A stretch of DNA of 64,000 bases, from NCBI GenBank assembly GCA_016415585.1, contig CP066552.1, forward strand, positions 3,782,001 to 3,846,000, given 5' to 3'. Positions 7,410 through 54,180 of this stretch are shown in pieces. Origin of the DNA: Pectobacterium carotovorum (GTDB taxonomy: Bacteria; Pseudomonadota; Gammaproteobacteria; Enterobacterales; Enterobacteriaceae). Position numbers and translations under genes: made by a program. Within the stretch, counting starts at the first letter, position 1; each line of letters starts with the position of its first letter. The notes under the pieces are model-generated. The model searched no databases. It was given only the letters and a program-made list of their open reading frames with translations, and was not told the origin of the DNA.

Positions 7410-7778
7410 TTCTTATACACAAATGCTGCCAATTATTACGGCTTTTGCCGTTATCCAGCGTAAAAATTATGCAGCGGTGGGCGTGACCGCCGAGTGAGCG
7501 GCATGGATGCCGCGAAAGTCAGTGCCGCGTCGGACAAAAACGTCAGGGACGTTTTTGAACAGCACTTGTGCTGGCCCGAAGGGCGAGCCACATTTATGGG
7601 GCGAGTAAACGCGTCACTGACGGCTCGAATCGCGGTCATGAACACCGATGGCACCGCGCAGCGGCATAATTTAGCCGGAAGCCTGGGTTCGCAGGGCGGC
7701 GGCGACTGAGCGCCCTGCGTCGGGCGCGTATACGGTATCGCATATGAATAGCGACGGTGTGGCGCACGAAACTGCCCC
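7410..7778 (+). repeat. Large intergenic repeat family A, copy A1, carrying the hairpin module
   Basis: This ~370-bp non-coding element is shared with 26568-26935 (reverse orientation) and, in shorter form, with 19660-19914. It contains stems that differ in sequence between copies but still pair, for example GTCAGTG with CACTGAC here. A ~73-bp hairpin module at 7534-7606 is inserted in the loop of that stem. Open reading frames across it are not conserved between copies. It fills most of the gap before rhiN; 7314-7409 shows nothing recognisable. Confidence 0.75.
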
Positions 7779-7828
7779 TTAGCCAGCATAACCGATATGA
7801 CTAAGAGGCAACGCTCGCGTTAATCCAG

Positions 7829-8974
7829 TTACAGATACACCCGCAGGTATTCCGCCAGACAGAGGATCGCCATCGCCTGACCGTAAGGCATGGAGGTCAG
7901 GGCGATGTTGCGGTAGAAATCCAGATCGTTGCCCATCGCGGTGCCGAATGACACCTGCGTCAGCTCACCGTCCTTATTGACGTGATTAATCACGCCACGA
8001 ATCGCTTTCTCCGCCACCTCAGCGTAGCTCGGGTCGACGTAGCGTTTGCGTACCGCTTTCAGGATACCGTAGGCAAAACCAGCGGTTGCCGAGCTTTCAA
8101 GGTATGAATTCGGATCGTCGATTAGCGTATGCCACAGGCCGCTGTCATCCTGATATTTTGCCAATGCTTCAATCTGGCTTTCCAGCACCTGCAACAGGAA
8201 GCGACGCGTCGCGTTGTGTTCTGGCAGATCCAGCAGTTCGATAAATTCAGGAATAACGATCGTCAACCAGCTGTTGCCACGCGCCCAGCGAGCCTTAGCG
8301 TAGTTGTGCTGCCCTTCGAACGTCCAGCCGTGGAACCACAGGCCGCTTTCGCGATCCATCAGGTATTGCACGTGCAGCAGGAACTGATACGTGGCTTCTT
8401 CTACAAATTCCGGTCGATTTAGCAGCTTGCCGATTTTCGCCAGCGGCAGCACGCTCATCATCAGCGTGTCGTCCCACAGCTGCTGGTGGTTTTCATTGTT
8501 ATAAACAATGTGCTGCAAGCCTTGCTTGTCCGTGCGCGGCATTTCATACATCACCCACTCCGCCCAGCGCTCCAGATACGGCAGCCAGCGGGCATCGCCC
8601 GTTTCTTCATAACGATAAGCCAGCGTCAGGAACGGGCATACGGTGTTCACGTTCTTCGTCGGCGTACCTTCCGCCAGACGCTCGGTAAACCAGTCGTCGA
8701 TGATGGCGCGCATCTGCTCATCACCCGTTTGCTGGTAATACTGATAAATCCCGTACAGCCCGATGCCGTGCGTCCATTCCCATCCCGCCCAGCCTTTGGT
8801 ATCAATCACACGACCATCGTCCAGCCGTAACAAGAACTCACCGGTTTTGTCCTCAATATTCACCAGATTGTCGGTGATACGGCAAATCAGCGCTTTCAGA
8901 TCCTCGCGGGAGATGAAGCGTTCTGGCTGACGTAAAAGCGGGCTATGTTTTACACTGAATACGGTCATAGTCAT
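7829..8974 (-). CDS. rhiN: Unsaturated rhamnogalacturonyl hydrolase, GH105
   Basis: Encodes 381 residues. The (alpha/alpha)6-barrel family signature is clear: WEWTHGIGLYGIYQYYQQTG, HQQLWDDTLMMSVLPLAKIG with the likely catalytic aspartate, and KARWARGNSWLTIVIPEFIE. No signal peptide, so it acts in the cytoplasm. GH105 enzymes remove the unsaturated galacturonyl residue left by lyases from rhamnogalacturonan oligomers. It sits 37 bp downstream of the transporter rhiT, forming a rhiTN operon as in Dickeya. ATG 8968 is an equally possible start. Confidence 0.9.
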   Translation of the reverse strand: MTMTVFSVKHSPLLRQPERFISREDLKALICRITDNLVNIEDKTGEFLLRLDDGRVIDTKGWAGWEWTHGIGLYGIYQYYQQTGDEQMRAIIDDWFTERLAEGTPTKNVNTVCPFLTLAYRYEETGDARWLPYLERWAEWVMYEMPRTDKQGLQHIVYNNENHQQLWDDTLMMSVLPLAKIGKLLNRPEFVEEATYQFLLHVQYLMDRESGLWFHGWTFEGQHNYAKARWARGNSWLTIVIPEFIELLDLPEHNATRRFLLQVLESQIEALAKYQDDSGLWHTLIDDPNSYLESSATAGFAYGILKAVRKRYVDPSYAEVAEKAIRGVINHVNKDGELTQVSFGTAMGNDLDFYRNIALTSMPYGQAMAILCLAEYLRVYL

Positions 8975-9011
8975 TCATCCAATTGAGTTATCAGTTAACA
9001 GTTCAATACAG

Positions 9012-10571
9012 TTACGGCTGTGTGGCGTGCGTGACCGGCTTGTCGCCTTTGTGGCGGTTCAGATAGCCGATATTGTTGTTGCCCCACAGCGATTCATACG
9101 GCATACCAGCCAGCATTTCGACCGTTGCGCGCGCCTGCGGCGTAATCTTCTCCGGCACAGGACGCCCGGCTTCACGCATTTTCAGCGTCTCTTCACGCAA
9201 CACGCTGTGCGTTTGCAGGTTGAGTTTAAAGCGCAGAGAAACCAGGAAGCCCAGCGCCAGCACGCCCACGGTGCCGAAGCTCAAAATCATCAGAATCGTG
9301 TGGCTGACGCCCGGTGCCTGTACGCTTTGCCCGGATACGAAGCCGGAGAGCTGTAACACCACGCCCACCAGCATCACCGCACCAGCCTGAGAGGCTTTGC
9401 GAGTCAGCGTCATAATCCCGGCGAAGATCCCTTCGCGACGCTGTGCGGTGATCACTTCATCCACATCCGCGATGTAAGTGTAGGTGTTCCACGGTACGTA
9501 GTTGATCCCGCCGCGCCCGATGCCCGCCAGCGCAGAAATCAACAGCAGCAGAGAGAAGGTGTCATGCAGACCGCTGTACCACAGGACCGCATAGGAAAGC
9601 GCACTCACGCCAAAAAGGCACACGACCAATCGGTAAGACGGGGCCGGCCCAAAGCGAATACACAGCGGAATCATGCCGATAACCGCGATAAATTGCAGAA
9701 TCGCCATCGTTCCCATCAGGTTCGACGCCATCGTCGGGCTTTGCATCAGCACAAAGACCACGTAGTAAGTGAACACGGCGTTAAACACGTCCTGCGCGAT
9801 ATACCCGCCCAGATACATTCCGAGATGCTGACGGAAAATACGAATACGCAGAGTGGAAACCAGCTCAACGTTCAGCCGTTTCAGGCTTTGGCCTAACGTC
9901 AGAGACTGACGCTCTTTCTCCGCCCGCAGCGACGCTTCCGACATCTGATCGCGCGGCCGTTCCCAGGTAAAGAAATAGACCAGCGTCAGCACCAGCGCAC
10001 AGATAACGGAGAACACCAGACTCGAATAGAAGAAGGACACCGCATTGTCTTTGCCAAAGTAGCCCAGCAGGATGCCCGGCAGAAACGCGGCCAAAATCGC
10101 AGACAGCTGCGCCAGCGCGATACGTGCGCCGGAGAACTTGGTCTTCTGTTTGAAGTCATCAGTCATTTCCGGCACCAGCGTTTCATACGGCACCAGCACC
10201 ATCGTATAAACGACATCGAACAGCAGGTACGTCAGCAGATAGTACCAATAGCCCATATCCCCGACCCACATGAAGCTGTAGCTGAACACGAAGGGAATAC
10301 CGAGCAGAATAAAGAACTTACGGCGGCCAAAGCGTTTGCCCAGCCAGGTTGAACCAAAGTTATCGGTCAGGAAGCCCATCAGCGGGCTGACGACGGCATC
10401 GAGCACGCGCGCCATCGCAAAAATAAACGTTGCCTCAATCGGCGTTAAGCCACAGAACGTGGTGTAAAAATAGAGTAACCAGGCAGCCGTCAGCGCGGTG
10501 GTACCCGCACCAAGAAAGTCCCCTGAACCGTAGGCTAAATAGTTAGCCAAACCGATCTTACGCGTTTTCAT
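9012..10571 (-). CDS. rhiT: Rhamnogalacturonide transporter, GPH/MFS family
   Basis: Encodes 519 residues from ATG 10571 (MKTRKIGLANYLAYGSGDF), chosen because GGGGAAGG precedes it at proper spacing. The frame stays open upstream to 10817, but that ~80-residue extension is Arg/Lys-rich and unlike the family. It has about twelve membrane segments with GPH-type loops (LGKRFGRRKFF). It imports oligogalacturonide-rhamnose fragments released outside the cell for RhiN to process. First gene of the rhiTN operon. Confidence 0.88.
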   Translation of the reverse strand: MKTRKIGLANYLAYGSGDFLGAGTTALTAAWLLYFYTTFCGLTPIEATFIFAMARVLDAVVSPLMGFLTDNFGSTWLGKRFGRRKFFILLGIPFVFSYSFMWVGDMGYWYYLLTYLLFDVVYTMVLVPYETLVPEMTDDFKQKTKFSGARIALAQLSAILAAFLPGILLGYFGKDNAVSFFYSSLVFSVICALVLTLVYFFTWERPRDQMSEASLRAEKERQSLTLGQSLKRLNVELVSTLRIRIFRQHLGMYLGGYIAQDVFNAVFTYYVVFVLMQSPTMASNLMGTMAILQFIAVIGMIPLCIRFGPAPSYRLVVCLFGVSALSYAVLWYSGLHDTFSLLLLISALAGIGRGGINYVPWNTYTYIADVDEVITAQRREGIFAGIMTLTRKASQAGAVMLVGVVLQLSGFVSGQSVQAPGVSHTILMILSFGTVGVLALGFLVSLRFKLNLQTHSVLREETLKMREAGRPVPEKITPQARATVEMLAGMPYESLWGNNNIGYLNRHKGDKPVTHATQP

Positions 10572-10739
10572 CGCCATCCTTCCCCGAACATTTTTAATTA
10601 TGAAGGTGTCACGCTGATACGGTAGCGCCCGGCGATCGTGAAAACCTTTGCGCTTTTGCCACCACGCGCCCCACGCTGGCAGCACAGGGAAGATTGGTGC
10701 GATCCGCTTCAAAGATTTTATAAAAAGCGATTTTAACTG

Positions 10740-10759
10740 AACGAAACTAGCAGTTCGTT
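10740..10759. promoter_or_regulatory. Near-palindromic site upstream of rhiT, possible KdgR-like operator
   Basis: AACGAAACTAGCAGTTCGTT is a near-perfect inverted repeat about 170 bp upstream of the rhiT start. KdgR, the pectinolysis repressor of soft-rot bacteria, binds palindromes with GAAAC/GTTTC cores. The match here is only partial, so the call is weak. The rest of 10572-10873 shows no gene. Confidence 0.3.
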
Positions 10760-10873
10760 TATGGCGATCACAGGATAGAAGATAGGAAGTCAGCGGGAAG
10801 AAGGGCAACGTCGCCAACGGACGTTGCCTTGTGATGTCTTGAAAAATGGCGTTTTTTTTAGCAGAGACTAGCG

Positions 10874-11764
10874 CTATTCAGCGTGCTGCAGTCGCCACAG
10901 GAAGGTTTGCCGCGCGTGGGCTAAACGCGGCTGGCGCAGAGCACCTGGCACCCAGGCCAGATAGTAATCCAGCTGCGTTGTGCCAACGGGAGGCGGAATA
11001 ATGGCAAGCTCCCCCGCATCCAGCAGGTCCTGACATAAATACACCGGCATCACCGTCCAGCCAAATCCACTGGTTAGCACGCGACGCAGCGCACGCAGAT
11101 CCTGACTCACCACGGCAGGCACCAGTCCCTTCTCCTCCATGCGGTTCTTCTTCAACCAGTGATCGATTAGAGGAAACTCAAGGTCATACGCCAGCATCGG
11201 TTCCTGCGCCATCGCCTGCGGCAGATCGCCCGTCTGCAATAGTCGTTCGACAATCGCAGGCGCCGCCACCGCCTGTAATGTCGCACTCTTCAACAGATCG
11301 CTTTTCAACCGCTTATCCGTCACCGGGTGCGCCGTTATGCCCAAATCACAGTGCCCTTCAAGCAGCATTTGTTTAATCAAATCGCCGTCGCCAGTATGCA
11401 TGTGCACCCGCACACCCGCTTCAAGCAGCGGTAACAGCTGTTCCGACACCACTTCGGCCATGAAATCCGCATGGCCAATGATATGCAGCGTCCCCGCGAC
11501 GTCCATCGATCTTGCGCGGGCGGAAGCCAGCGCCGCCTCGGCCTCATCGAGCTTGTCCCCCAGATCCGCCGCTAAGTCGTCTGCCGCCGACGTTGGCGTT
11601 ACGCCATTTGCCTGACGTTCAAAAAGCCGCCGCCCCACCGCCACCTCCAGCCCGGCAATATGCTGCGATACCGCAGGCTGAGTCAGATTGAGCGCGCGTG
11701 ACGCACCGCTAATTGAGCGCTGCCGATAGACTTCCACAAACGTGCGTAGACGGATAAGTGACAT
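10874..11764 (-). CDS. LysR-family transcriptional regulator
   Basis: Encodes 296 residues. The N-terminal helix-turn-helix is typical (LRTFVEVYRQRSISGASRAL, then NLTQPAVSQHIAGLE), followed by a periplasmic-binding-like effector domain from about residue 90. It is divergent from the aldehyde dehydrogenase at 12060, so it probably controls that gene and the DJ-1 protein after it. An ERIC element fills the shared promoter region, ending only 18 bp from this start codon. The effector is unknown. Confidence 0.85.
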   Translation of the reverse strand: MSLIRLRTFVEVYRQRSISGASRALNLTQPAVSQHIAGLEVAVGRRLFERQANGVTPTSAADDLAADLGDKLDEAEAALASARARSMDVAGTLHIIGHADFMAEVVSEQLLPLLEAGVRVHMHTGDGDLIKQMLLEGHCDLGITAHPVTDKRLKSDLLKSATLQAVAAPAIVERLLQTGDLPQAMAQEPMLAYDLEFPLIDHWLKKNRMEEKGLVPAVVSQDLRALRRVLTSGFGWTVMPVYLCQDLLDAGELAIIPPPVGTTQLDYYLAWVPGALRQPRLAHARQTFLWRLQHAE

Positions 11765-11782
11765 ACGATACCTATAGATATT

Positions 11783-11908
<126 letters not shown>

Positions 11909-12059
11909 GGGCCATAAAATTATTTATACCCCCCGAATAATAATCTTGTTGGCGGGCGGATCAACCCCTGCCGTATCCTTTACCCCATCTTGAGTGACCC
12001 GGAAAACCCGGCTAACTTTCTGTTTTCTCTGGTACTCGACGACGAAAAGGAGACAAAAC

Positions 12060-13478
12060 ATGTCGACACAACAATCCAAAAAGGATTTACACGCTATCCT
12101 GAATACGATGAAGCGCGCTCACATTGCCTCTGGCCCCGCCGATGCCTCACTGCGTCAAGATCGCTTACAGCGCAGCATCAACCTGCTCCGTGAAAACCAT
12201 GCGGCGCTCGCGCAGGCTATGAGTGACGATTTCGGCCATCGCAGCCTGTATCACTCTTTCGCCGCCGACATCGGCATCACGCTGAAAATACTCCAGAACG
12301 CCATCGACAACGTTGAACGCTGGATGCAGCCAGAACCCGTGGATGAGCCCGCTCCCAGCATGCAGGCATGGATTCAACATCAGCCTTTGGGCGTGATTGG
12401 CGTGATCAGCCCGTGGAACTTCCCGGTGAATCTGTCGTTCGGCCCGCTGGCTGACATTTTTGCTGCCGGTAATACCGCAATTCTGAAACCGTCAGAGCTC
12501 ACGCCGCGTACGTCTGAGCTGCTGGCGGAGTTGATTGCCCACTATTTTGATCCGCTGGAATTGGCCGTGGTGCTGGGTGATGCAGAAATCGGTCAAGCAT
12601 TCAGCGAGCTGCCGTTCGATCATCTGGTCTTCACCGGCAGCACCGCCGTTGGGAAACTGGTGATGCGCGCGGCGGCAGAGAATCTGGTGCCGGTCACGCT
12701 GGAGCTGGGTGGCAAATCACCGGTCGTAATTGATAGCAGCGCGGATATCACTGAAGCCGTTGAACGCACGCTGACGGTGAAAACCTTCAACGCCGGACAA
12801 ATCTGCCTGTCGCCGGACTATGTTCTGCTGCCCGAAGGTCAAGAGCAGGCTTTCCGCGATGCCGCAAAAGCCTTTATGCAGAAAAGCTTCCCGACGTTAC
12901 AGGCGAATCCAGATTACACGTCTATCATTGCTGACAGACATTACGATCGTTTGATCCGCATCCTGAAAGAGGCTGAGCAGCAAGGCGCGACGGTCGTCAG
13001 TCTGGCACCGGAAGGCGAAGCGCCCTACGACGCCAAAAGCCGTAAGATTGCCCCGCATCTGGTGTTCGGCGTAAGCGATGAGATGACGATCATGCAGGAA
13101 GAAATTTTCGGCCCGCTGCTGCCCATCAAAACCTATCAGGCCGCAGAGGAACCGATTCACTACATCAATGCGCATCCACGTCCGCTGGCGGCCTATCTGT
13201 TCAGCAACGATGAAGCCATGCAGCAACGCTTCGCCAGCAGAACGACATCAGGCGCGCTGGTCATCAACGATGTGATGACGCACGTATCGATCGACACACT
13301 TCCGTTCGGCGGCGTTGGCGCATCCGGCATCGGCGCGTATCACGGCGTTCACGGATTCCGCCGTTTCAGCCACGCCAAACCGATTGTCATACAAAGTGAA
13401 GATGGCGCGTCTAACCTGACACTGCGTGCGCCTTACCATGAGAAACAAGACGCGATTGTCGCCGCCCTGAAAGGGTAA
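12060..13478 (+). CDS. NAD(P)-dependent aldehyde dehydrogenase, coniferyl-aldehyde-dehydrogenase-like
   Basis: Encodes 472 residues from ATG 12060, which has AAAAGGAG upstream; the frame opens earlier at 11994 without support. Motifs include GVIGVISPWNFPVNLSFGPL, FTGSTAVGKLVM (cofactor), LELGGKSPVVI with the catalytic glutamate, and FNAGQICLSPDY with the active cysteine. The lack of an extended N-terminus and the QICLSPDY context match the coniferyl aldehyde dehydrogenase branch, which oxidises aromatic aldehydes. A role on plant phenolics is plausible but inferred. Followed 44 bp later by a DJ-1/PfpI gene, likely the same operon. Confidence 0.82.
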   Translation: MSTQQSKKDLHAILNTMKRAHIASGPADASLRQDRLQRSINLLRENHAALAQAMSDDFGHRSLYHSFAADIGITLKILQNAIDNVERWMQPEPVDEPAPSMQAWIQHQPLGVIGVISPWNFPVNLSFGPLADIFAAGNTAILKPSELTPRTSELLAELIAHYFDPLELAVVLGDAEIGQAFSELPFDHLVFTGSTAVGKLVMRAAAENLVPVTLELGGKSPVVIDSSADITEAVERTLTVKTFNAGQICLSPDYVLLPEGQEQAFRDAAKAFMQKSFPTLQANPDYTSIIADRHYDRLIRILKEAEQQGATVVSLAPEGEAPYDAKSRKIAPHLVFGVSDEMTIMQEEIFGPLLPIKTYQAAEEPIHYINAHPRPLAAYLFSNDEAMQQRFASRTTSGALVINDVMTHVSIDTLPFGGVGASGIGAYHGVHGFRRFSHAKPIVIQSEDGASNLTLRAPYHEKQDAIVAALKG

Positions 13479-13522
13479 CCAGCGTCTATTCACCCGATCA
13501 TCCTGCAACCCTAGAGAGAAAA

Positions 13523-14280: not shown

Positions 14281-14396
14281 TGGGCTTCAGTGGGAGACCG
14301 GATGTTTTTCACTGAAGCCCAAATCACTTACTCGAGTCAGTGATTTGGGCGACTGGCAAATTTTTCTGGGACAGATTTGAACGAGATTTGCAGTGT
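14281..14396. repeat. Overlapping hairpins; probable decayed ERIC/module fragment
   Basis: TGGGCTTCAGTG (14281-14292) pairs perfectly with CACTGAAGCCCA (14310-14321). CCCAAATCACT (14318-14328) pairs perfectly with AGTGATTTGGG (14339-14349). The two stems share CCCA and cannot both form fully. The stretch from 14323 resembles the ERIC centre followed by the start of the hairpin module (GACAGATTTGAACGAGATTTGC). The rest of 14204-14583 is AT-rich with no gene. Confidence 0.5.
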
Positions 14397-14583
14397 ATCC
14401 ACAGGGTGAGGCGCACTGAGTAACACTGCCAATATACATGTAACTAAAATATTACGAATATAAATATTTACATATGCATATGATACAAATATGAATTTAA
14501 GAAAATAAAGCATTTTTTTACAGCCACAAATAAATAAACCGGTCAATAATACTAATTACACACATTAACGTAATTAGGTATAT

Positions 14584-19659: not shown

Positions 19660-19914
19660 TCAACGGCGTAAAAAATTGTGCTGAGATGCACATGACCGCC
19701 GAGTGAGCCGCATGGACGCGGCGAAAGCCTGTGCCGCGTATGGAACGCGTCACAGGCGGCTCGACAGCGGGCATGTTCATCGAAGGAACCGCATCGCGGC
19801 ACAATTCTCGCCAAAAGCCTGGGTTCTGAGGGATGCGGCGTCTGAGCATCCCTCAGTCGGGCGTGGCAATGGTGCCACAAAGAACAATATGGCTAATCAC
19901 GCACGAAACTGTTC
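19660..19914 (+). repeat. Large intergenic repeat family A, copy A2 (no module: empty site)
   Basis: Colinear with A1 and A3 but ~75 bp shorter in the middle. The stem CCTGTGCCGCGT / ACGCGTCACAGG (about 19727-19754) closes on a 4-5-nt loop exactly where A1 and A3 carry the hairpin module. A second stem CTGAGGGATG / CATCCCTCAG at about 19825-19857 has a different sequence from its counterparts in A1 and A3 but pairs equally well. It fills the mazG-relA spacer. Confidence 0.75.
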
Positions 19915-26567: not shown

Positions 26568-26935
26568 GACAGTTTCGTGCGCTTACAATATGGCTATTCC
26601 ATGCTCCTCCGCAGCACGCGCCCGACACGGGACGGCTCAAACGCCGCTCGCCCCGTGACCCCAGGCTTTTTGGCGGAAATTATGCCGCTAACGCGGGGCC
26701 TTCGTCGGTATCTGGCTTTACGGACCGCTTGCGACACGATTACTCACCCCATAAATGGGGCTCGCCCTCCGGGCCAGCACACGTGCTGTTCAAAAACGTC
26801 TCTGACGTTTTTGTCCGGCGTGGCGCAAGCTTTCGCCGCGTCCTGCGGCTCATCCGAAGCCAGCTATCTCCTCAGCATAATTTTTTACGCCGGATAACGG
26901 CAAAACCCACAATGTCGCTGCATTCGTATAAGAAA
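26568..26935 (-). repeat. Large intergenic repeat family A, copy A3, carrying the hairpin module
   Basis: Reverse-strand counterpart of A1 across its whole length, including the ends (GCGCACGAAACTG-type and TTGCCGTTATCC-type). It contains the module at 26742-26814. Its host stem (GCTTGCG/CGCAAGC) differs from A1 and A2 but still pairs. The plus-strand reading frames covering it are not shared with the other copies. 26936-27058 shows nothing else. Confidence 0.75.
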
Positions 26936-30195: not shown

Positions 30196-31536
30196 TTAGC
30201 GAACCAGACACGGACGTTTATTATCAAACGTCCACTCAGGAATAAGGTACTGCATTCCCATGGCGTCGTTACGTGCGCCTAATCCCATGTTTTTATACAG
30301 TTCGTGTGCTTTCATCACCTGATCCATATCCAGCTCAACGCCCAGACCCGGTTTCTTCGGCACTTCCACCATGCCGCCAACAATCTGCAACGGTTCTTTC
30401 GTCAGGCGTTGGTTACCTTCCTGCCAGATCCAATGCGTATCAATCGCCGTAATCTTGCCCGGAGCCGCCGCAGCGACCTGAGTAAACATGGCCAGTGAAA
30501 TATCAAAGTGGTTATTGGAGTGAGAACCCCAGGTTAAGCCCCATTCGTGGCACATCTGCGCCACACGTACGGAACCTTGCATCGTCCAGAAGTGCGGATC
30601 GGCCAACGGGATATCGACCGATTGCAGCGAAATAGTGTGACCCATCTGCCGCCAGTCGGTGGCGATCATGTTGGTCGCGGTAGGCAGCCCCGTCGCACGG
30701 CGGAATTCCGCCATCACTTCACGACCGGAGAAGCCTTGTTCCGCGCCGCACGGATCTTCTGCATACGCCAGCACGCCGCGTAGCTGTTTACCCAGGCCGA
30801 TAGCTTCATCCAGCGACCAGGCACCGTTCGGATCCAGCGTGATGCGAGCCTGTGGGAAACGTTTCGCCAGCGCGGTCACCGCTTCGGCCTCTTCGCTACC
30901 GGCCAGTACGCCGCCTTTCAGTTTGAAATCGTTGAAACCGTATTTTTCATACGCGGCTTCAGCCAGACGCACGATGGTTTCTGGCGTCAGCGCTTCTTCG
31001 TGACGCAGGCGATACCAGTCGCATTTCTCGTTAGCCTGACTCTGGTAAGGCAGATCGGTTTTATTACGATCGCCGATGTAGAACAGATAACCCAGCATCT
31101 CGACGGCATCACGCTGTTGACCATCGCCTAGCAGCGAGGCCACGCTGACGTTGAGGAATTGCCCCAGCAGATCGAGCATGGCGGCTTCGATCCCCGTGAC
31201 GACATGGATAGTGGTACGTAGATCGAATGTCTGCAAACCGCGCCCGGAAGAATCGCGGTCGGCGAACTGCACACGCACCGCCGTCATAACGTTTTTGTAT
31301 TCGCCCAGCGTTTTGCCTACCACCAGCGCGGCAGCATCTTCCAGCGTCTGACGGATTTTCTCACCGCCGGGAATTTCTCCGACGCCGGTATTCCCGGCGT
31401 TATCTTTCAGAATCACAATGTTGCGAGTGAAATAAGGTGCATGTGCACCACTCAGGTTGAGCAGCATACTGTCGTGACCTGCAACCGGAATAACCTGCAT
31501 GTGGGTAATCACCGGAGTTGAACTTTGCAATGTCAT
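30196..31536 (-). CDS. gudD: D-glucarate dehydratase
   Basis: Encodes 446 residues of the enolase superfamily, mandelate-racemase subgroup. The KxK-type base lies in [11 protein letters not shown], metal ligands in [15 protein letters not shown] and [18 protein letters not shown], and the catalytic histidine in [14 protein letters not shown]. Dehydrates D-glucarate to 5-keto-4-deoxyglucarate. Directly follows its paralogue gudX, 36 bp apart. Confidence 0.96.
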
Positions 31537-31572
31537 TTTCTTATCCTTTCTCTCTAATTTTTCTATGTAGGG

Positions 31573-32910
31573 TTAGCGGCCAAAAACCGGGCGTTTACGA
31601 TCAAATTTCCAACCAGGAATCAGGTACTGCATGGCGACGGCATCATTACGTGCCCCGCTCGGTAATTTTTTGTACAGATCGTGGGCTTTCATGACCTGTT
31701 CCATATCCAGCTCAATTCCCAGACCGGGACGATCCGGCACCTTAATCTTGCCGTTGACGATTTGCAGTGGCTCTTTGGTCAGATGCTGCCCTTCTTGCCA
31801 AATCCAGTGCGTATCAATCGCCGTCGGGTTACCCGGTGCCGCCGCCCCTACGTGCGTGAACATCGCTAGAGAAATATCGAAGTGGTTATTGGAATGGCAG
31901 CCCCACGTCAGGCCCCATTCATCACACAGTTGGGCGACGCGCACCGCACCGTGCATCGTCCAGAAATGGGGATCGGCCAGCGGAATATCGACCGCTTGTA
32001 GCATCACAGCATGGTTCATTTCGCGCCAGTTGGTCGCAATCATGTTGGTCGCGACCGGTAGCCCGGTGGCACGACGGAATTCCGCCATTACTTCACGACC
32101 GGAGAAACCTTGTTCAGCACCGCACGGGTCTTCTGCGTAGGTCAGAATGCCCTTCATGTCTTTGCACAACTCAATCGCTTCATCCAGCAGCCAGGCACCG
32201 TTTGGATCGACGGTAATACGCGCATCCGGGAAACGCTTTTTCAGCGCTTTCACGGCATCAATTTCCTGCTCGCCGGGCAGTACACCACCTTTGAGTTTGA
32301 AATCTTTAAATCCGTAGCGGTCAGTTGTGGCTTCGGCCAAACGCACAATCGCGTCGCTGTCCATCGCCTGCTGGTGACGCAGGTGATACCACTCGTGCTT
32401 GCCTTTTTCGCCAGTTAAATAAGGTAGATCCGTCTTAGTGCGATCGCCGATATAGAACAGATAACCGAGCACGGTGACTTCATCACGCTGTTTACCCGGC
32501 CCCAGCAGTTCGGCAACGGGGACACCCATGAATTGCCCCAGCAGATCGAGCAGCGCCGCTTCGAGTGCTGCCACCGCATTCACGCGCAGCTCAAACGTCC
32601 AGGCGCCTTTGCCGAAGGAATCAAAATCAGAAGATTGGTTGCCGACATGAATGTCATGAACCAGACGGTTCATGCGGGCGATTTGTTCGCCTTTCACACG
32701 AGGAATGGCTTCAACCAGCGTGTTGTAAATGACTTCACCACCGGGCGCTTCGCCGACACCGGTATGCCCGGCGCTGTCGGTTAGAATGACGAGATTACGC
32801 GTGAAGTAAGCACCGTGTGCACCACCGATGTTCAGCAGCATGCTGTCATAACCCGCAACGGGAATGACTTTCATGTCGGTAATCACAGGCGTCGCTGAAA
32901 AGTTTGTCAT
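31573..32910 (-). CDS. gudX: Glucarate dehydratase-related protein
   Basis: Encodes 445 residues and is a close paralogue of gudD throughout, with the same active-site segments ([40 protein letters not shown]). GudX proteins are known as weak glucarate/idarate dehydratases. First gene of the gudX-garK run; its long upstream region holds two ERIC elements and motifs shared with the gudP promoter region. Confidence 0.93.
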
Positions 32911-33116
32911 GACAGGCTCCCGTCATGAATGGAGCGCACAGGATTGACGCTTAGGTTTCCGATAGTTGCCACAACGCAGGGGCGCGCAGAGGCGGATGAA
33001 AATAATTCAGTCATACAGAAATAAAAAACAGATGGTGCACCAGTAGATAATTTCATGTTGTTTTCCTACTTTATTAGCGCGACCTTGTTTTTACTCTGAT
33101 TTGAACTGAACACTGC

Positions 33117-33466
33117 TTGTAGGGTTATCAGAATAAAAACAGGTTATATACCCGTAATACTTCAAGTTGCATGTGCGTTGGCTTCCCTTACTCACCCCAG
33201 TCACTTACTGATGTAAGCTCCTGGGATTCCCGCGGTTGCCGCCTTCCCGCAACTCGAATTATTTGAGGTATAACTGTCCCGATACCGAAATAAACCAGTC
33301 AGGAAAACGATGTTGTAATCCGTACCGCCTTACCAACCTCAGTAAAAAGTATAAGTTTTCTTATTTCACAACTCATTGGGCAATAGCACAGCATTCCCTG
33401 TCGAAATGCAGATTAAATATGTCATTATCACAGGCCAATGGGAGGTGTTTCACGAAAACCGTGAAA
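33117..33466. promoter_or_regulatory. gudX upstream regulatory region, paralogous to that of gudP
   Basis: Three motifs recur in the same order upstream of gudP: GTAGGGTTATCAGAAT (about 33118-33134), AGCACA-CATT (about 33387), and GAGGTGTTTCACGAAAA (about 33443-33458). The last extends here into the inverted repeat TTTCACG/CGTGAAA (33448-33466). The distance from the second to the third motif is 57 bp in both regions. ERIC element E2 is inserted between the first and second motifs. A likely binding region for the diacid regulator CdaR, though the regulator is inferred. Confidence 0.5.
33147..33272. repeat. ERIC element E2 (no insert)
   Basis: 126-bp ERIC in reverse orientation with ends TATACCCGTAATACTTCAAG and AACTCGAATTATTTGAGGTA, and the centre CACTTACTGATGTAAGCTCC. 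It splits the gudX regulatory region. Confidence 0.9.
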
Positions 33467-33565
33467 AGCGAATTTCCGTCTTATAAACACCGAAATACGC
33501 CCCTTTGGCACCCAATTTCGAAGAGGTAAAACCCGACGTTAAAGGGCATGAATAAATGACAAATT

Positions 33566-33732
<167 letters not shown>

Positions 33733-33775
33733 TGTGTTATTGCCTATATCTAGACTAATACGGTAACGACTGGCC

Positions 33776-35128
33776 TTAATTCTTAACGAACGGCTTCAAT
33801 TCGATACGTTTAATATCTTGTACGATGAACAGGTAGCTGACGATGGCAACCAACGCATGAATCCCGACATACACCAGACCGCCATTGAACGAACCGGTCA
33901 TGCCGATAATGTAGCCAATCGCAATCGGCGTCACGATACCAGACGCGTTACCGAACATATTGAACAGCCCGCCGCTTAACCCGCTGATTTCTTTCGGTGC
34001 AGTATCCGCCATAACCGCCCAGCCCAGCGCACCAATGCCTTTGCCGAAGAAGGCTGCAGACATCACCGCAATAACCACCCATTCGGTTTCAACGTAGTTA
34101 CAAATCACCATCGACATGGAGAGCAACATACCGAGAACGATAGGCGTTTTACGGGCAAAGGTCAGGGAGTTAGTCCGACGCATCAGATAATCGGAAATGA
34201 TGCCACCCAGAACGCCTCCGACAAAACCACAGATAGCAGGAACCGAGGCGACAAATCCCGCTTTGAGGATCGACATACCGCGAGCTTGAACCAGATAAAG
34301 CGGGAACCAGGTAATGAAGAAGTAGGTCAGTGCGTTAATACAGTATTGGCCGATATACACACCCAGCATCATACGGGACTGCATTAATTGCTTGATTTGG
34401 TGCCATTTCTCCCCTTTAACGACCTCTTTCTTCGTCCCTTTGGCATCCATATTAATCAGTGCACCACCGGCCTCAATGTAATCCAGCTCGGCCTGATTCA
34501 CACTCGGGTGATCTTTTGGATCGTGGATCACTTTCAGCCAGACAAAGCTCAGAATGATCCCCAACCCGCCCATGAACCAGAACACATGTGCCCAACCCAC
34601 GGCGTGCACCAGCCAGCCCATGATAGGAGCAAAAATCACAGTAGCGAAGTATTGCGCCGAGTTGAATATCGCGACGGCAGTACCACGTTCTTGTGCAGGG
34701 AACCAGGCCGCTACAATTCGGCTATTCCCCGGGAAGGAGGGTGATTCACACAAACCAACCATAAAGCGCAGCAAGAACAGGGAAATGACAATGCCAGCGC
34801 CGCTGAAGATATCGACAAAACCTTGTAATAAGGTAAAAATCGACCAGGTAAAAATACTATAGAAGTAGACTTTCTTTGAACCAAAGCGATCGAGCAGCCA
34901 GCCTCCGGGTATTTGCCCAATAACATATGCCCAGGAGAACGCTGAGAAGATATAGCCCATCCCCACCGCATCCAGCCCAATTTCCTTAGACATTGCTGAA
35001 CCAGCAATGGACAAGGTTGCGCGGTCCCCATAGTTAAATGACGTGACAATAAACAACATCACGACAATCCAGTAGCGGGCGTTTGTTCTCTTTTGTATCG
35101 CGCCAGCTGCTGAGCTTACTGTATTCAT
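33776..35128 (-). CDS. gudP: Glucarate/galactarate MFS transporter
   Basis: Encodes 450 residues from ATG 35128 (MNTVSSAAGAIQKRTNARYW), preceded by AGGAG; the frame opens earlier to 35161. It has about twelve membrane segments of the anion:cation symporter branch (FNYGDRATLSIAGSAMSKEI; GGWLLDRFGSKKVYF). Imports glucarate and galactarate into the cytoplasm. In E. coli it is followed closely by gudX; here the two are 865 bp apart. Confidence 0.94.
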   Translation of the reverse strand: MNTVSSAAGAIQKRTNARYWIVVMLFIVTSFNYGDRATLSIAGSAMSKEIGLDAVGMGYIFSAFSWAYVIGQIPGGWLLDRFGSKKVYFYSIFTWSIFTLLQGFVDIFSGAGIVISLFLLRFMVGLCESPSFPGNSRIVAAWFPAQERGTAVAIFNSAQYFATVIFAPIMGWLVHAVGWAHVFWFMGGLGIILSFVWLKVIHDPKDHPSVNQAELDYIEAGGALINMDAKGTKKEVVKGEKWHQIKQLMQSRMMLGVYIGQYCINALTYFFITWFPLYLVQARGMSILKAGFVASVPAICGFVGGVLGGIISDYLMRRTNSLTFARKTPIVLGMLLSMSMVICNYVETEWVVIAVMSAAFFGKGIGALGWAVMADTAPKEISGLSGGLFNMFGNASGIVTPIAIGYIIGMTGSFNGGLVYVGIHALVAIVSYLFIVQDIKRIELKPFVKN

Positions 35129-44532: not shown

Positions 44533-44637
44533 CCTCTACTCCAGGCTTATTTCGCATAATGCGCGTAATAATATCATAGGCACGTATCATTACACGTCAC
44601 TGCCGCACGGCTCTTCACCGCACAACACATTTTGAGA

Positions 44638-44773
44638 TATACCCTAAATAATTCGAGTTGCATGACAAAACGTTAACGTTTTGAACAACGCAAAGCGTTG
44701 GCCCGCAGGGGCGAGGCTTAGAAATGAGCCGAGTATCGCCAACGCGCATGCAGCTTGAAGTATGACGGGTATA
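44638..44773. repeat. ERIC element E4 with the hairpin module replacing its centre
   Basis: Both ERIC ends are present (TATACCCTAAATAATTCGAG; CTTGAAGTATGACGGGTATA), but the usual central hairpin is gone. In its place at 44665-44735 is the module: AAAACGTT/AACGTTTT, GAAC, AACGC/GCGTT, GGCCC..GGGGC, GGCTTAG/TGAGCC. Confidence 0.8.
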
Positions 44774-47634: not shown

Positions 47635-47686
47635 GGGGGTTCCCTTGATGCGCCGCCTATCTTCACTGACAAGCGGCAGTTAACGG

Positions 47687-49262: not shown

Positions 49263-49346
49263 ACTGTTCTCATTTCGGTTTATACATTGCCTCGTCAGAC
49301 TTAAGCCTCTACTATCGGACCACCATTAACGCAACATGATGATCTT

Positions 49347-49967
49347 ATGCAGAAATTAGGCTTACTCTGTTTTACTTTATTTTCTCTCACGCTGAGCTGG
49401 ACCGCACAGGCGGAAGAAAAACGCTACATTTCCGATGAGTTATTGACATATGTCCACAGTGGGCCGGGCAATCAATATCGTATCGTCGGGACAGTGAATG
49501 CTGGCACTGAGGTTACGCTACTCAGCGTTAATGAAAGCGCTGGCTATGCACAGATCCGTGACGATAAAAACCGTACAACCTGGATTCCTCTCGACCAGCT
49601 TAGCAATACGCCGAGCCTGCGCACGCGGGTGCCGGAGCTGGAAAATCAGGTTAAAGACCTGACTGACAAACTGAATAATATCGATCAGACCTGGAACCAA
49701 CGCACCGCTGATATGCAGCAGAAAGTCGCTGCTAGCGATAGTGTTATCAATGGATTACGCCAGGAAAATCAGGATCTGAAAACTCAGCTTATCGTCGCAC
49801 AGAAGAAAGTCAGCGCGGCGAATGTCCAGCTTGATGATAAGCAGCGCACCATCATTCTACAGTGGTTTATGTACGGTGGCGGCGTTGCTGGCATAGGCTT
49901 GCTGCTGGGTCTGCTGTTGCCGCATATCATCCCGCGTAAAAAGAAAAATGACCGCTGGATGAGCTAA
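49347..49967 (+). CDS. ygiM: SH3-domain membrane protein YgiM
   Basis: Encodes 206 residues (TIGR04211 type). It has a signal peptide (MQKLGLLCFTLFSLTLSWTA, cut after AQA), a bacterial SH3 domain (YVHSGPGNQYRIVGTVNAGT), a coiled coil around residues 95-170, and a C-terminal membrane helix (GVAGIGLLLGLLLP) before a basic tail. The cell-envelope role is not established. Upstream of cca, as in E. coli. Confidence 0.9.
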   Translation: MQKLGLLCFTLFSLTLSWTAQAEEKRYISDELLTYVHSGPGNQYRIVGTVNAGTEVTLLSVNESAGYAQIRDDKNRTTWIPLDQLSNTPSLRTRVPELENQVKDLTDKLNNIDQTWNQRTADMQQKVAASDSVINGLRQENQDLKTQLIVAQKKVSAANVQLDDKQRTIILQWFMYGGGVAGIGLLLGLLLPHIIPRKKKNDRWMS

Positions 49968-50089
49968 TCGGAATACGTGCCTGCGAGACGCAGGCATGAG
50001 GTTGCTGACAAAGTCCGTAGAGCGGGAGCAACGGATAGACCGTAAAGACGCTGTAAACACATCCCTGTGCGCTCGGCTTGCGCAGATAT

Positions 50090-50163
50090 GAATCTCATCC
50101 ATGAGATTCACCCTTTCAGGGCCGTCGCAAGCGACGTTCAAAAGCGTTCCTGACGCTTTTGTC
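50090..50163 (-). repeat. Hairpin module, stand-alone copy
   Basis: On the minus strand it reads ACAAAAGCGTC, ACGCTTTTGAAC, then CGCTTGCG, GGCCC..GGG, and AATCTCAT/ATGAGATT, the same hairpin order as the module in ERIC E4-E6 and repeat family A. It lies in the ygiM-cca spacer (49968-50337) without recognisable ERIC ends. A short hairpin TGCCTGCG/CGCAGGCA at 49978-49996 follows ygiM. Confidence 0.65.
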
Positions 50164-50337
50164 CCTGGCGCAAACGCTTTACTCTTCTATTCCGTTACTC
50201 CCGTTTTCGCTCGACAAATTAGGTTTGTTAACGGTCCGGCGCCTGCTTCTTGCAGGCATTTTTCTTTGCGGCCAACGCAGCGGCGCAAAGATGATAGTAT
50301 GTGGTGAAGTATTGGTTATTGATTCAGGAGCCCGACA

Positions 50338-51582
50338 TTGAAGATCTACCTTGTCGGCGGCGCTGTTCGGGACAGCCTGCTGGGTTTACCCGTCACCGAG
50401 AAAGATTGGGTGGTGGTCGGCGCAACGCCGGAGAATCTGCTTACGCAGGGTTACCAGCAGGTTGGAAAGGATTTTCCCGTCTTCTTACACCCCGTTAGCC
50501 GCGATGAATACGCTCTCGCACGTACCGAACGCAAATCTGGCAAAGGCTATACCGGGTTTGTCTGCCATGCTGCACCCGATGTCACGTTAGAGCAGGATTT
50601 GCTGCGCCGCGATTTGACCATCAATGCCATTGCCCGCACCGAGCGGGGCGACCTTATCGATCCCTATCACGGCCGTCGCGATCTTGAGAATCGCCTGCTG
50701 CGTCACGTTTCCGACGCATTCAGCGAAGATCCGTTACGGGTGCTGCGCGTCGCCCGTTTTGCCGCGCGTTTTGCTCATCTCGGCTTCCAGATTGCCGAAG
50801 AAACCATGGCGCTGATGCAAAAAATGGCGCATGAGGGCGAGCTGGCCTACCTGACACCAGAGCGCGTCTGGAAAGAGACGGAAAAAGCGCTCGGCACGTC
50901 ATCGCCAGATGTCTATTTTCAGGTGCTGCGAGACTGCGGCGCGCTGGCCGTGCTGTTCCCTGAAATCGATAACCTGTACGGCGTGCCAGCTCCCGCCAAA
51001 TGGCACCCGGAAATCGATACCGGCATTCATACGATGATGACAGTGGCGATGGCCGCTCGCCTCAGCCCTGAGATTGATGTACGTTTTGCCACGCTGTGCC
51101 ACGATTTAGGGAAAGGGCTGACGCCCCCTGAACTCTGGCCGCGTCATCACGGTCATGGCCCCGCGGGTGTCAAACTGGTTGAAGCACTGTGCCAGCGCCT
51201 GCGTGTGCCTAACCCGATTCGCGATCTGGCAAAGCTGGTTGCGGAATATCATGACCTGGTTCATACCGTGCAGGTGCTGCAACCCAAAACCCTGCTGAAG
51301 TTATTTGATGCGATTGACGTCTGGCGTAAACCACAGCGTCTGGAGCAGTTAGCGCTCACGAGCGAGGCCGATGCCAGAGGCCGTGCCGGTTTTGAAGAAA
51401 ACCCTTATCCACAAGGTGATTACCTGCGTGAAGCCTTCCGCGTCGCCAGTCAGGTCAGCAGTGCGGCCGTCGTCGCCGATGGTTTTAAAGGGATTGACGT
51501 GCGTAACGAACTGGCACGTCGTCGCATTCATGCACTGGCAGACTGGAAAGCACAGCAGCCGGATAGCTCGGGCACGTCCTGA
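50338..51582 (+). CDS. cca: Multifunctional CCA-adding enzyme
   Basis: Encodes 414 residues from a TTG start at 50338 with CAGGAG upstream; the protein then begins [18 protein letters not shown] exactly as expected. It has the nucleotidyltransferase head, the [10 protein letters not shown] segment, and a C-terminal HD domain ([20 protein letters not shown]) with phosphatase/phosphodiesterase activity. Adds and repairs the 3' CCA of tRNA. Confidence 0.97.
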
Positions 51583-51586
51583 AACA

Positions 51587-51614
51587 AAGAGGCCACGCTA
51601 ATGCGTGGCCTCTT
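51587..51614. terminator. Bidirectional terminator between cca and uppP
   Basis: AAGAGGCCACGC and GCGTGGCCTCTT form a perfect 12-bp stem with loop TAAT between convergent genes. Confidence 0.85.
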
Positions 51615-51653
51615 CTCTCTATAACGGTCGACCTAAAATCAACGTTCTCAGTC

Positions 51654-52472
51654 TTACATAAACACCATGTAAACCACGCCCGCGACGATAAAACGATAAA
51701 TCGCGAACGGGACAAACGAGATGCGTTTGATGATTTTCAGGAAGGTTTTAATCGCAATCAGCGCCACAACAAACGCCGTCACGAAGCCCACGGCAAACAT
51801 CGGCACATCGGCCAGCGACAGGAAATGCCAGCTTTTATACAGATCCAGAACAGTCGCGCCCATCATCATGGGAACCGCCAGAATAAAAGAGAACTCAGAA
51901 GCCGCATAGCGGCTGACGCCCATCAGCATCCCGCCGGAAATGGTTGCCCCCGAGCGTGAAAAGCCGGGCCACAGCGCCAGACATTGAAAACAGCCAATCA
52001 TAAATGCCTGACGATGCGTGATGTCATCCAGCCCGACAGCACGCGGCTGTTTTGGCTTGAACCATTCCGCCGCTAACAGCAGGAAGCCGCCGATCACCAG
52101 CGCATACATCACGTTCTGTGGATAAAACAGCGACTTGATGAAGTCATGAAAAATCAGCCCAAGCACCACTGCGGGAATCATTGCCAGTAAGATGTGCGTC
52201 AGTTTCAGACGCCCGGAGGTTTTCCCCTCGTGCGGAACTTCGCCGAAGTGAATCCCTATCAGACCAAAGAGGCGACGCCAGAACATCACGACAACAGCCA
52301 GAATCGAGCCAAGCTGAATGATCACTTCAAATGTCTTGGCTTTCTCATCAGCAAACCCTAACCAATGACCAACGATAATCATATGCCCCGTAGACGATAC
52401 GGGCAAAAACTCGGTCAGTCCTTCGACCACGCCAAGAATAAATGCGATTAGCAATGAATGCAGGTCAGTCAT
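51654..52472 (-). CDS. uppP: Undecaprenyl-diphosphatase
   Basis: Encodes 272 residues, a multi-spanning membrane protein with the two family motifs [16 protein letters not shown] and [17 protein letters not shown]. Recycles the lipid carrier for cell-wall synthesis; also called bacA for bacitracin resistance. Same strand as folB, but separated by an ERIC element. Confidence 0.97.
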
Positions 52473-52514
52473 CTAAAAATCCTTGCCTCTAATAAAAACG
52501 AAAATGCAGCGCAC

Positions 52515-52546
52515 AAAAAAGCGGCTGCGTACTTCCGCGAGCCGCT
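52515..52546 (-). terminator. Rho-independent terminator downstream of folB
   Basis: On the minus strand AGCGGCT...AGCCGCT forms a 7-bp stem (52520-52546) followed by a six-T run (52515-52520). Confidence 0.65.
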
Positions 52547-52547
52547 A

Positions 52548-52751
<204 letters not shown>

Positions 52752-52821
52752 ACTGGCTTATAGACTATTTGGGTTACGGTTTAGTTGCACGTAAAGCCGT
52801 ATTTATTCTGTTAAATCAGAT

Positions 52822-53175
52822 TTATCGCGTGCCGCGCTCAATAATGACGCCAACCTGACGCGCCTGCGCGACGGCGCCCGGCTTGCTGAGCTTGATCCGC
52901 AGCCAGGGAATCGAGAAGCGCTGCATCAGCATGCGCGCAACTTCTTCAGCAACGCGTTCCACCAGCGCAAAACGCTGGTTTGCCACGTGGGCAATCACCG
53001 CCTCGCTGACATCGGCATAGCTCAGGCAGTCATTAACATCGTCACTAGCGGCTGCCTGACGGTTGTCCCAGCCCATTTCGATATCGAACACCAGTTTCTG
53101 CTGGATGGCCTGTTCCCAATCGTAAACACCAATAGTAGTGATTACAGTAAGTTCTTCAATAAATACGATATCCAT
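52822..53175 (-). CDS. folB: Dihydroneopterin aldolase
   Basis: Encodes 117 residues from ATG 53175 ([20 protein letters not shown]), the conserved FolB start; a GTG codon directly before it is also in frame. It retains the pterin-binding glutamate region ([30 protein letters not shown]). Cleaves dihydroneopterin in folate synthesis. Divergent from plsY, as in E. coli. Confidence 0.96.
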
Positions 53176-53303
53176 CACGCCATTCTCTGTTTTTGTCGCT
53201 GTCGGATACCACTTCCGACGGAATATGCGTATTATCCACAGATGAGAAGAGTAAAACGACCCTTATTAAACGTCTCTCTATACAAACTAAACGGAATAGC
53301 GTT

Positions 53304-53939
53304 ATGAGTGTTACCGCGCTTGGTATGATGTTAATCGCGTATCTGTGTGGCTCTATTTCCAGTGCGATTTTGTTTTGCAGAATTGCTGGGCTACCCGACC
53401 CGCGTCAGCATGGTTCTGGGAACCCCGGAGCCACTAACGTATTGCGTATTGGCGGCAAAGCGGCCGCTGCAACCGTATTGGTGTTTGATGTCCTGAAAGG
53501 CATGCTGCCAGTCTGGGCCGCTTACGAGCTGGGCGTTCCCCCGCTGTATCTCGGGTTAACCGCTATCGCCGCCTGTCTCGGCCATATCTATCCGGTCTTT
53601 TTCCACTTTCGCGGTGGCAAAGGTGTAGCAACCGCTTTTGGCGCTATCGCCCCAATCGGCTGGGATCTGACAGGCCTGATGACCGGCACCTGGCTACTGA
53701 CCGTGCTGCTGAGCGGCTATTCCTCGCTTGGCGCGATTGTCAGTGCGCTCATCGCGCCGTTTTATGTCTGGTGGTTCAAGCCACAGTTTACCTTCCCCGT
53801 CGCGATGCTCTCTTGCCTGATACTGATGCGTCATCATGACAATATCCAACGCCTCTGGCGCGGACAGGAAAGTAAAATCTGGAATAAGCTGCGTAAGAAG
53901 AAACAACCGGAAGACGAACAAACCTCCCCCGAAGAGTAA
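53304..53939 (+). CDS. plsY: Acyl-phosphate:glycerol-3-phosphate acyltransferase
   Basis: Encodes 211 residues from ATG 53304, where similarity to the E. coli protein begins ([20 protein letters not shown]); the upstream frame from 53193 is not supported. It is a multi-spanning membrane protein with [15 protein letters not shown] and [12 protein letters not shown]. First acyl transfer of phospholipid synthesis. In E. coli the other neighbour is tsaD; here a chemoreceptor follows instead. Confidence 0.96.
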
Positions 53940-53947
53940 GGCAAAAA

Positions 53948-53975
53948 AATTCCCGTTTTCACGGGAATTTTTTTA
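53948..53975 (+). terminator. Rho-independent terminator of plsY
   Basis: AATTCCCG and CGGGAATT form the stem with a 6-nt loop, flanked by A-runs and followed by seven T residues. Confidence 0.9.
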
Positions 53976-53980
53976 TGAAG

Positions 53981-54180
53981 TATATCCCTAAATAATTCGA
54001 GTTGCAGGCAGGCGGCAACGCAGTGAATCCCTAGGAGCTTACTCAAGTAAGTGACTGGGGTGAGCGAGGACAAATCGGCTTAGTCGATTTGAACGCCGCT
54101 TGCGGTGGCCCTTCAGGGCGAGGCTCAGAGAGGAGCCGAGTATTGCCAATGCACATGCAGCTTGAAGTATGACGGCGATA
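53981..54180. repeat. ERIC element E6 with hairpin module insert
   Basis: A complete ERIC with the classic centre CTTACTCAAGTAAGTGACTG and the module at 54070-54142 (AAATCG/CGATTT, GAAC, CCGC/GCGG, GGCCC..GGGC, GGCTC/GAGCC). Its right end abuts the stop codon of the chemoreceptor gene on the opposite strand. Confidence 0.85.

Follow-up and report, generated by a model that had tools for sequence, protein, structure and literature searches.

REP and REPIN sequences are short, non-autonomous hairpin repeats, with each REP forming a single hairpin. Inserts of approximately 70 bp within ERIC elements were reportedly described by Wilson and Sharp in 2006. The module characterized here resembles REP/REPIN sequences in being a short and apparently non-autonomous hairpin repeat, and differs from these single hairpins in consisting of a chain of four. 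It shares its length and an ERIC host with the inserts but occupies three ERIC sites as well as unrelated hosts and is distributed class-wide. RtT RNA (RF00391, an E. coli tyrT sRNA) shares stems 2 to 4 and its end with the module, and differs in that it appears to be a tRNA-like host carrying a decayed module. The RF00391 model misses the copies of the window, none of which was identified in an Rfam scan, where only Rev72 attained its threshold. CsrB/RsmZ-type sRNAs likewise carry GGA in hairpin loops and bind CsrA, whereas the module is only a putative sRNA and CsrA ligand. The element at 49997-50241 resembles YPAL/RU-2 (168 bp) in sequence and, like it, interrupts a dyad, here a terminator-like hairpin with a short direct repeat; PMC2229807 describes dyad targets with duplications of 3-26 bp for YPAL. 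YPAL/RU-2 is a host rather than the module, which the published RU-2 sequence lacks. No module common to ERIC, YPAL, and RtT was described in the titles and abstracts retrieved from an open-access library; PMC2759123, PMC2267715, and PMC10969869 were also drawn on.

The window analyzed was a stretch of 64,000 nucleotides of Pectobacterium carotovorum DNA (contig CP066552.1), for which the original prediction had listed six copies of a multi-hairpin module. All six were confirmed with offsets of a few bases. Folding revealed a module of approximately 74 nt with four consecutive hairpins in every copy, with folding energy z-scores of -5.1 to -7.2 in five copies and -2.6 in the 54070 copy. The expected order of stem 1, GAAC, stem 2, a GGCCC/GGG stem 3, stem 4, and a CGAGTA-like end was present in 6/6, and the family A copies too end in GAGTA once the next base is included. 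In a MAFFT alignment of the six copies, standard pairs comprised 98.0% of 153 pair cells, both-sided changes were found in 12 of 26 pairs, and 0 of 500 shuffled controls attained either value, so that the stems differ and still pair well above chance, as had been proposed. Pairing fell to 33-40% when the structure was slid. A covariance model built from these copies (R1) recovered all six at 72.6-90.1 bits, together with one weak extra match in the window. On folding, each end of the module formed a hairpin of its own and the two ends did not pair, so that terminal inverted repeats of the MITE type were not found.

Table 1. Module copies and host elements within the window.
Feature	Positions	Strand	Remarks
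Module copy	7534..7607	+	Apical loop of family A element; 90.1 bits with R1; four hairpins
Module copy	26741..26814	-	Second family A element; 88.3 bits; flanks matched family A
Module copy	44665..44735	+	ERIC, 5' end at site b, 3' end at site a; 72.6 bits
Module copy	50087..50162	-	Apical loop of YPAL/RU-2-like element; 78.9 bits; GGA in both outer loops
Module copy	52633..52710	+	ERIC site a; 83.9 bits
Module copy	54070..54142	+	ERIC site a; 82 bits
Degenerate module, weak match	14356..14422	+	17.3 bits with R1 (E 0.014); 20.3 bits with R2
Host ERIC of 44665 copy	44632..44773	+	Approximate edges, from synteny breakpoints
Host ERIC of 52633 copy	52547..52748	+	Approximate
Host ERIC of 54070 copy	53983..54181	+	Approximate; aligned to published RU-1
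Host YPAL/RU-2-like element with module	49997..50241	-	Alignment to published RU-2
Host family A element with module	7450..7740	+	Approximate; compared with empty copy 19660-19870
Family A element without module	19660..19870	+	Empty site: apical loop ATGGA

The copies had been assigned to ERIC elements and to an unrelated family A, with the copy at 50090 standing alone. Both hosts were recovered, but a third had been missed, as alignment placed the 50090 copy in the loop of a YPAL/RU-2-like element, and none of the six stands alone. This host aligned with the published 168-nt RU-2 with the module as a gap (one copy aligned). It carries the direct repeat GCCTGC at its ends, lies inside a terminator-like hairpin, and was missing in 22 of 23 readable relatives. 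The host ERIC of the 54070 copy aligned with the published 127-bp ERIC/RU-1. ERIC elements were occupied at three separate sites (a, b, and c), with some carrying more than one module, and a filled family A element had no match in E. coli.

We then compared filled and empty sites among relatives. Two orthologous ERICs (genomes G003 and G021) differed by exactly 74 bp, with the other 206/206 bases identical and no target duplication except for one ambiguous A. An ERIC without the module was found at the 52633 site in five relatives, and the relatives hold a, a+b, or a+c modules at the 54070 site. Judged by these comparisons, the module appears to come and go cleanly, as one unit; what looks like an exact 74-bp gain could instead reflect precise loss, or conversion by the sequence of another ERIC. 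With several unrelated hosts, strong covariation, and orthologous sites that either hold the whole module or cleanly lack it, neither chance pairing nor a single ancestral host repeat accounts for the copies, and the claim of unrelated host families was upheld. The whole unit is exactly present or absent in otherwise identical hosts. We lean, somewhat beyond even, towards a reading in which the module is a non-autonomous structured mobile DNA unit of approximately 74 nt, conserved in its four-hairpin fold. Such a module would enter or leave as single-stranded DNA in its folded state. Its target would be G|A, either within an exposed loop or beside a terminator hairpin, and a putative enzyme supplied in trans would recognize both outer hairpins together with the GGA loops they carry. 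After rare insertions it would spread mostly with its host repeat or by tandem duplication. Against this reading, neither an autonomous relative nor ongoing transposition came to light.

Searches scored 132-140 module copies in the Pectobacterium genome and at least one copy in 124 of 274 sampled Gammaproteobacteria. Seven kinds of site were recognized: ERIC a, b, and c, family A, YPAL, tRNA-like T-loops, and terminators. Beyond the repeats described above, some copies lay next to genes, solo copies flanked terminators, and others formed tandem arrays or occupied the loops of tRNA-like repeats, of which RtT RNA is one. The solo copies are located elsewhere in the genome, outside the window. 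Among 22 genomes read at a solo site (3 of 25 were unreadable), 8 were filled, source genome included, and 14 were empty, while an array locus held 0, 1, 2, or 4 head-to-tail copies across the genus. At two terminator sites, direct repeats of 7 and 11 bases bordered the solo copies; these repeats may belong to the module itself or may be duplications of the target. In RF00391, stems 2 to 4 and a GAGUA-AUCC end lie at the T-loop position. The own-genome RtT copy scored 104.6 bits with RF00391 and 45.3 with the R2 model, and five E. coli RtT copies scored 23.7-27.0 bits with the R3 model. Of 12 tRNA-like loci chosen for comparison, 5 reached the RF00391 gathering score (L074, L108, L123, L186, and L189), and L165 and L171 matched below it. 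When one module was used as the query, no match was found in a plasmid collection and two partial matches were found in a phage collection. For 118 of 124 copies, the nearest neighbour shared their host class (shuffled mean 23.7), and with such host-specific lineages independent insertions seem to have been few, with most copies spreading with the host repeat.

The junctions were examined for target preference. A.G|A junction was found in 47% of 207 cases compared to 6.7% of the background, and in family A and YPAL the junction was GG|A. Position -1 was G in 134/207 and position -2 was C in 78/207, with -3 and -4 mixed. IS200/IS605-type elements have a fixed tetra- or pentanucleotide target on the left flank; no such target was observed among the 207 junctions, where positions -2 to -4 varied. 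Flanking stems of at least 7 bp were present at 22/207 junctions compared to 43/935 random positions (Fisher exact test in a wider-offset test; p = 0.0015), while stems of 5 bp or more near the junction showed no enrichment (0.10 vs 0.081 permuted). When the joined flanks were folded, the junction fell in a hairpin loop in 139/207 cases compared to 336/573 random positions at w = 12 and in 125/207 compared to 309/588 at w = 16. From w = 20 to 38 the junctions did not exceed random positions, and general hairpin-loop targeting was dropped on this basis. As the loop-fold excess is small and the near 5-bp stem is not enriched, loop targeting is seen in the named hosts and is unproved as a general rule.

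A further question is whether the GGA loops point to a function in RNA. GGA was found in 84/96 and 90/96 outer loops among the rows of A5, compared to 4/96 and 9/96 inner loops. The R3 model was built from GGA-type copies, so its GGA counts are biased; counts from solo and YPAL copies found with R1 are less so, and there both outer loops kept GGA in 8/8 solo copies (of 13, those whose optimal fold had four hairpins) and in 8/9 YPAL copies (10 in all). The GGA-type copies, represented in the window by the YPAL copy, present GGA in hairpin loops, as CsrA/RsmA-binding RNAs do. Under an alternative that we regard as unlikely, the top strand would be transcribed and its GGA loops would bind CsrA/RsmA, so that modules located in 3' regions or within tRNA operons would titrate CsrA or bring mRNAs under CsrA control. 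The outer loops, mostly CANGGAT and NNGGA, are indeed close to the CsrA SELEX consensus RUACARGGAUGU and the loop ANGGAN given in PMC7652899, and the published RU-2/YPAL has two same-strand GGA loops, a number attained by 0/60 shuffles. Among modules with a tRNA within 300 bp upstream (48/218), 62 tRNA-module pairs were on the same strand and 3 were antisense, and a co-oriented ORF precedes 9/9 YPAL and 4/4 family A copies (window copies left out). However, modules of other genomes that lie apart from tRNAs were oriented without bias relative to the upstream ORF (36 vs 27; p = 0.31), and the family A GGA loops were not unusual, with shuffles as high in 4/60 for the empty copy and in 27/60 and 25/60 for filled copies. 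CsrA was found in 69/75 module-positive and 111/224 module-negative genomes of the phylum sample (Fisher exact test, which ignores phylogeny; p = 5e-12) but in 110/124 and 125/150 of the class sample (p = 0.23), and this co-occurrence was set aside as support. GGA loops also persist in six module-positive genomes lacking detected CsrA (17/22 first and 13/22 last loops, with 22 of 38 matches folded), although some of these genomes are fragmented and CsrA may have been missed. A csrA gene lay at 2/29 class, 4/118 pattern, 0/30 order, 0/25 phylum, and 0/106 own loci; a neighbourhood link was rejected, since tRNA-Ser and tRNA-Arg also lie at the csrA-bearing loci and offer a simpler reason. G-U pairs were rarer in module stems (1.1-1.8%) than in tRNA stems (5.6%), and with the missing orientation bias this leaves the earlier suggestion of a mobile or RNA-structured unit under selection for its fold standing as to structure and covariation and unsupported as to selection at the RNA level. 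A broader synthesis can be offered tentatively and with considerable doubt, in which the module is a new kind of mobile DNA guided by structure: a 74-nt folded cassette with GGA-hairpin ends that enters hairpin loops at G|A. In doing so it would spread putative docking sites of the CsrA type among repeats, and to tRNA operons, throughout Gammaproteobacteria, and the ERIC inserts and RtT would be its decayed descendants.

The rarity of G-U intermediates is also what templated correction predicts, and the module may be a passive passenger whose stems covary through inverted-repeat correction in replication while its fold is unselected. We consider this improbable. Its prediction extends to the ERIC-embedded copies, in which GGA loops are mostly lost and the stems are still paired, with 94.2% of cells paired in the own-genome set composed mostly of these copies. 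Correction would leave unexplained the outer loops and the single-stranded GAAC and GAGTA conserved among families of the class, and one-sided G-T intermediates occur in orthologues, as in the 54070 copy of G000 vs G003 (sequences compared by eye). It is far less probable that a small transcript of the bottom strand, ending in a terminator-like hairpin and T-run, was processed and copied back at other terminators. At two sites compared among relatives, solo copies directly follow a T-run and end in their own T-run, with a head-to-tail array at one, as such retroposition would produce, but insertion in ERIC, T-loops, and YPAL loops would be left unexplained.

One structured module ties ERIC inserts, YPAL, and RtT RNA to repeats, so far without a name, from many Gammaproteobacteria, linking repeat families that were previously described separately, and its filled and empty sites allow its movement to be tested. 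If CsrA does read the GGA loops, many genomes would hold dispersed docking sites that are uncounted today; if a recombinase reads them, this would represent an undescribed way to move short folded DNA. Within the window, the 44665 copy is probably a recombinant formed from two modules with loss of the centre of the ERIC, because its two ends lie at different ERIC sites. The stretch giving the weak extra match was found to be a 70% repeat of part of the ERIC at 52604-52683.

The coordinates and the order of elements originally predicted for six copies of a module of about 74 nt were confirmed by reading the window sequence, and four consecutive hairpins were found in each copy when the six were folded alone. 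The predicted covariation of the stems was also observed. In a MAFFT alignment of the six copies that made no use of structure, 98.0% of 153 pair cells were standard and 12 of 26 pairs had changed on both sides. None of 500 shuffles matched the pairing or the two-sided-change figure, and pairing fell to 33-40% when the partner strand was slid; the fold is therefore not a product of chance.

We assessed the abundance of the module in its own genome, a chromosome of 4.74 Mb on which the window occupies 3,782,001-3,846,000. The covariance search suggested by the original prediction, using the six copies, returned at least 132 matches from 150 scored among 788 candidates, and at least 140 were obtained with a model built on GGA-type copies (150 scored among 882). 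When the window and 99 loci were searched locally, 141 matches were obtained; these were grouped by their flanks into host classes, with the published RU-1 used to recognise ERIC hosts (sites a, b and c). Modules carried by ERIC showed a strand bias that differs between the chromosome halves: below 2.37 Mb 11 were plus and 30 minus, whereas above it 33 were plus and 11 minus. Their next downstream ORF was co-oriented in 54 cases versus 24.

Module host classes in the own genome and positions of associated features
Feature	Position	Matches or detail
Module copies, starts	window 7534, 26741, 44665, 50087, 52633, 54070	six copies
ERIC site a		33/141
ERIC site b		32/141
ERIC site c		15/141
Spanning ERIC b to a		5/141
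Family A (~200-bp repeat family without assigned name)	window 7450-7740, 19660-19870, 26741-26814	6/141
YPAL-like family		10/141
Solo, then A-run		13/141
Fitting no flank rule		27/141
RtT copy	genome 2,613,959	RF00391, 104.6 bits
TACTAC-TGTA-type host	genome 2684519, 4221637
Rev72 antisense RNA	window 33097-33782	overlaps two inverted ERIC-like copies
Three repeat pairs	window 30290-32564	spacing 1374-1377
Direct repeat, 208 nt	window 948-1155, 5895-6102	89% identity

The element around the copy at 50087-50162 aligns with the 168-nt RU-2/YPAL of Yersinia, as sequenced in the table of PMC2759123, with a gap in RU-2 where the module sits. The threshold of the RtT RNA model was passed by 5 of 12 loci submitted (the own-genome copy, L108, L123, L186 and L189), and in the RtT alignment a core resembling the module occupies the T-loop position of a tRNA-like stem. 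Five E. coli RtT copies scored 23.7-27.0 bits with the model of GGA-type copies. The module is thus common to three described repeat families and family A.

Junctions were examined in 207 copies with non-redundant flanks, drawn from 280 aligned. The preceding base was G in 134/207 and the following base A in 153/207; G before and A after were combined at 47% of junctions versus 6.7% in nearby sequence. Empty loops read ATGGA in a family A copy lacking the module and AAGGAT in published RU-2, and by eye both loops appear to have been entered between GG and A of a GGA loop. Stems of at least 7 bp spanned 22/207 junctions versus 43/935 random positions (p 0.0015), while a fold-based test of the joined flanks for a junction in a hairpin loop gave no clear excess over random positions.

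The proposed count of filled and empty sites was carried out among relatives in the genus, such as G003 and G021. At the solo site 1,604,595, 8 genomes were filled (own included), 14 were empty and 3 of 25 were unreadable. At 54070, the ERICs of G003 and G021 differ by exactly 74 bases that are present in G003; the remaining 206/206 bases, an identical second module included, are the same. G004 has a b-site module instead. The ERIC at 52633 carries the module in G006, G007, G012, G015 and G017, lacks it in G003, G014, G020, G021 and G024, is partly deleted in G002 and G023, and is absent from 12 relatives. The YPAL-like composite at 50090 was found in G023 and was absent from 22 other relatives, G024 being unreadable there. 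An array at 2,883,111 holds 0, 1, 2 or 4 module copies among relatives, with other insertions inside some. Such filled and empty sites may reflect gain or loss, in either direction.

After removal of 2 matches longer than 85 nt and 15 without a host class, 124 of the 141 remained for a neighbour test. The nearest module neighbour belonged to the same host class in 118/124, versus 23.7 with shuffled labels; insertions thus look few, with amplification along with the host as the rule. The b-to-a forms, together with a b/c chimeric module read by eye in G007, suggest recombination between modules within one ERIC.

The scan of Pectobacterium proposed earlier found the module in all 25 genomes, own included (34 to 82 among the best 82 candidates per genome). 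Beyond the genus, it was found in 124/274 genomes and 103/222 genera of an even sample of the class Gammaproteobacteria, and in 75/299 genomes of a phylum sample, some outside the class. A DNA-pattern search gave at least 118 stretches, the matches listed including Serratia, Citrobacter, Methylomonas, Rheinheimera and Halomonas records. A 3.8-kb contig titled Desulfosporosinus sp. PR, from outside the phylum, also fits the pattern (L295). Composite repeats that are nearly identical and hold the module at the same place are numerous in two genomes, G304 and G180 (L192-L204, L205-L211). A host sequence containing a TACTAC-TGTA-type palindrome and CTCCGGTT was noted 3' of the module at L131, L133 and L135 as well as in the own genome; these occurrences span two families of the order.

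GGA is concentrated in the outer loops: among 96 distinct rows of one alignment (A5), it occurred in 84 first and 90 fourth loops, and in 4 and 9 inner loops. In another (A6), whose search pattern left the fourth loop free, that loop had GGA in 103/118. Among own-genome copies with a four-hairpin optimum, both outer loops had GGA in solo (8/8) and YPAL (8/9) copies, and it was missing from both in all 23 copies at ERIC site b, all 5 at site c and all 5 in family A; ERIC-a copies had it in the first loop in 6/29 and in the fourth in 0/29.

The fourth loop is similar to the CsrA consensus as quoted from PMC7652899, and an alternative reading is that the GGA loops dock CsrA as RNA. The strand of neighbouring tRNAs is consistent with this: within 300 bp upstream of modules, 62 tRNA-module pairs were same-strand and 3 antisense (27 and 7 downstream), and 48/218 modules had a same-strand tRNA upstream. 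However, for modules of other genomes that are not near tRNAs, 36 upstream ORFs were on the same strand and 27 on the opposite one. CsrA was detected in 69/75 module-positive versus 111/224 module-negative genomes of the phylum sample, but co-occurrence in the class sample was not significant (110/124 versus 125/150), and GGA loops persist in genomes without detected CsrA, some of these assemblies being fragmented. G-U pairs made up 1.1-1.8% of module pairs in A4-A6, one stem 3 position excluded, and 3.0% in alignment A2; in 70 tRNAs their share was 5.6% of the pairs in the acceptor and T stems. Taken together, these results make mobile DNA the likelier reading, ahead of CsrA docking; the two may also hold together.

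In some genomes, modules were also noted near csrA and its neighbouring tRNA-Ser and tRNA-Arg genes (loci L169, L168, L199, L241, L314, L321, L334). Across the window, Rev72 was the only Rfam match, and the spacing of the three repeat pairs suggests adjacent duplicated genes.
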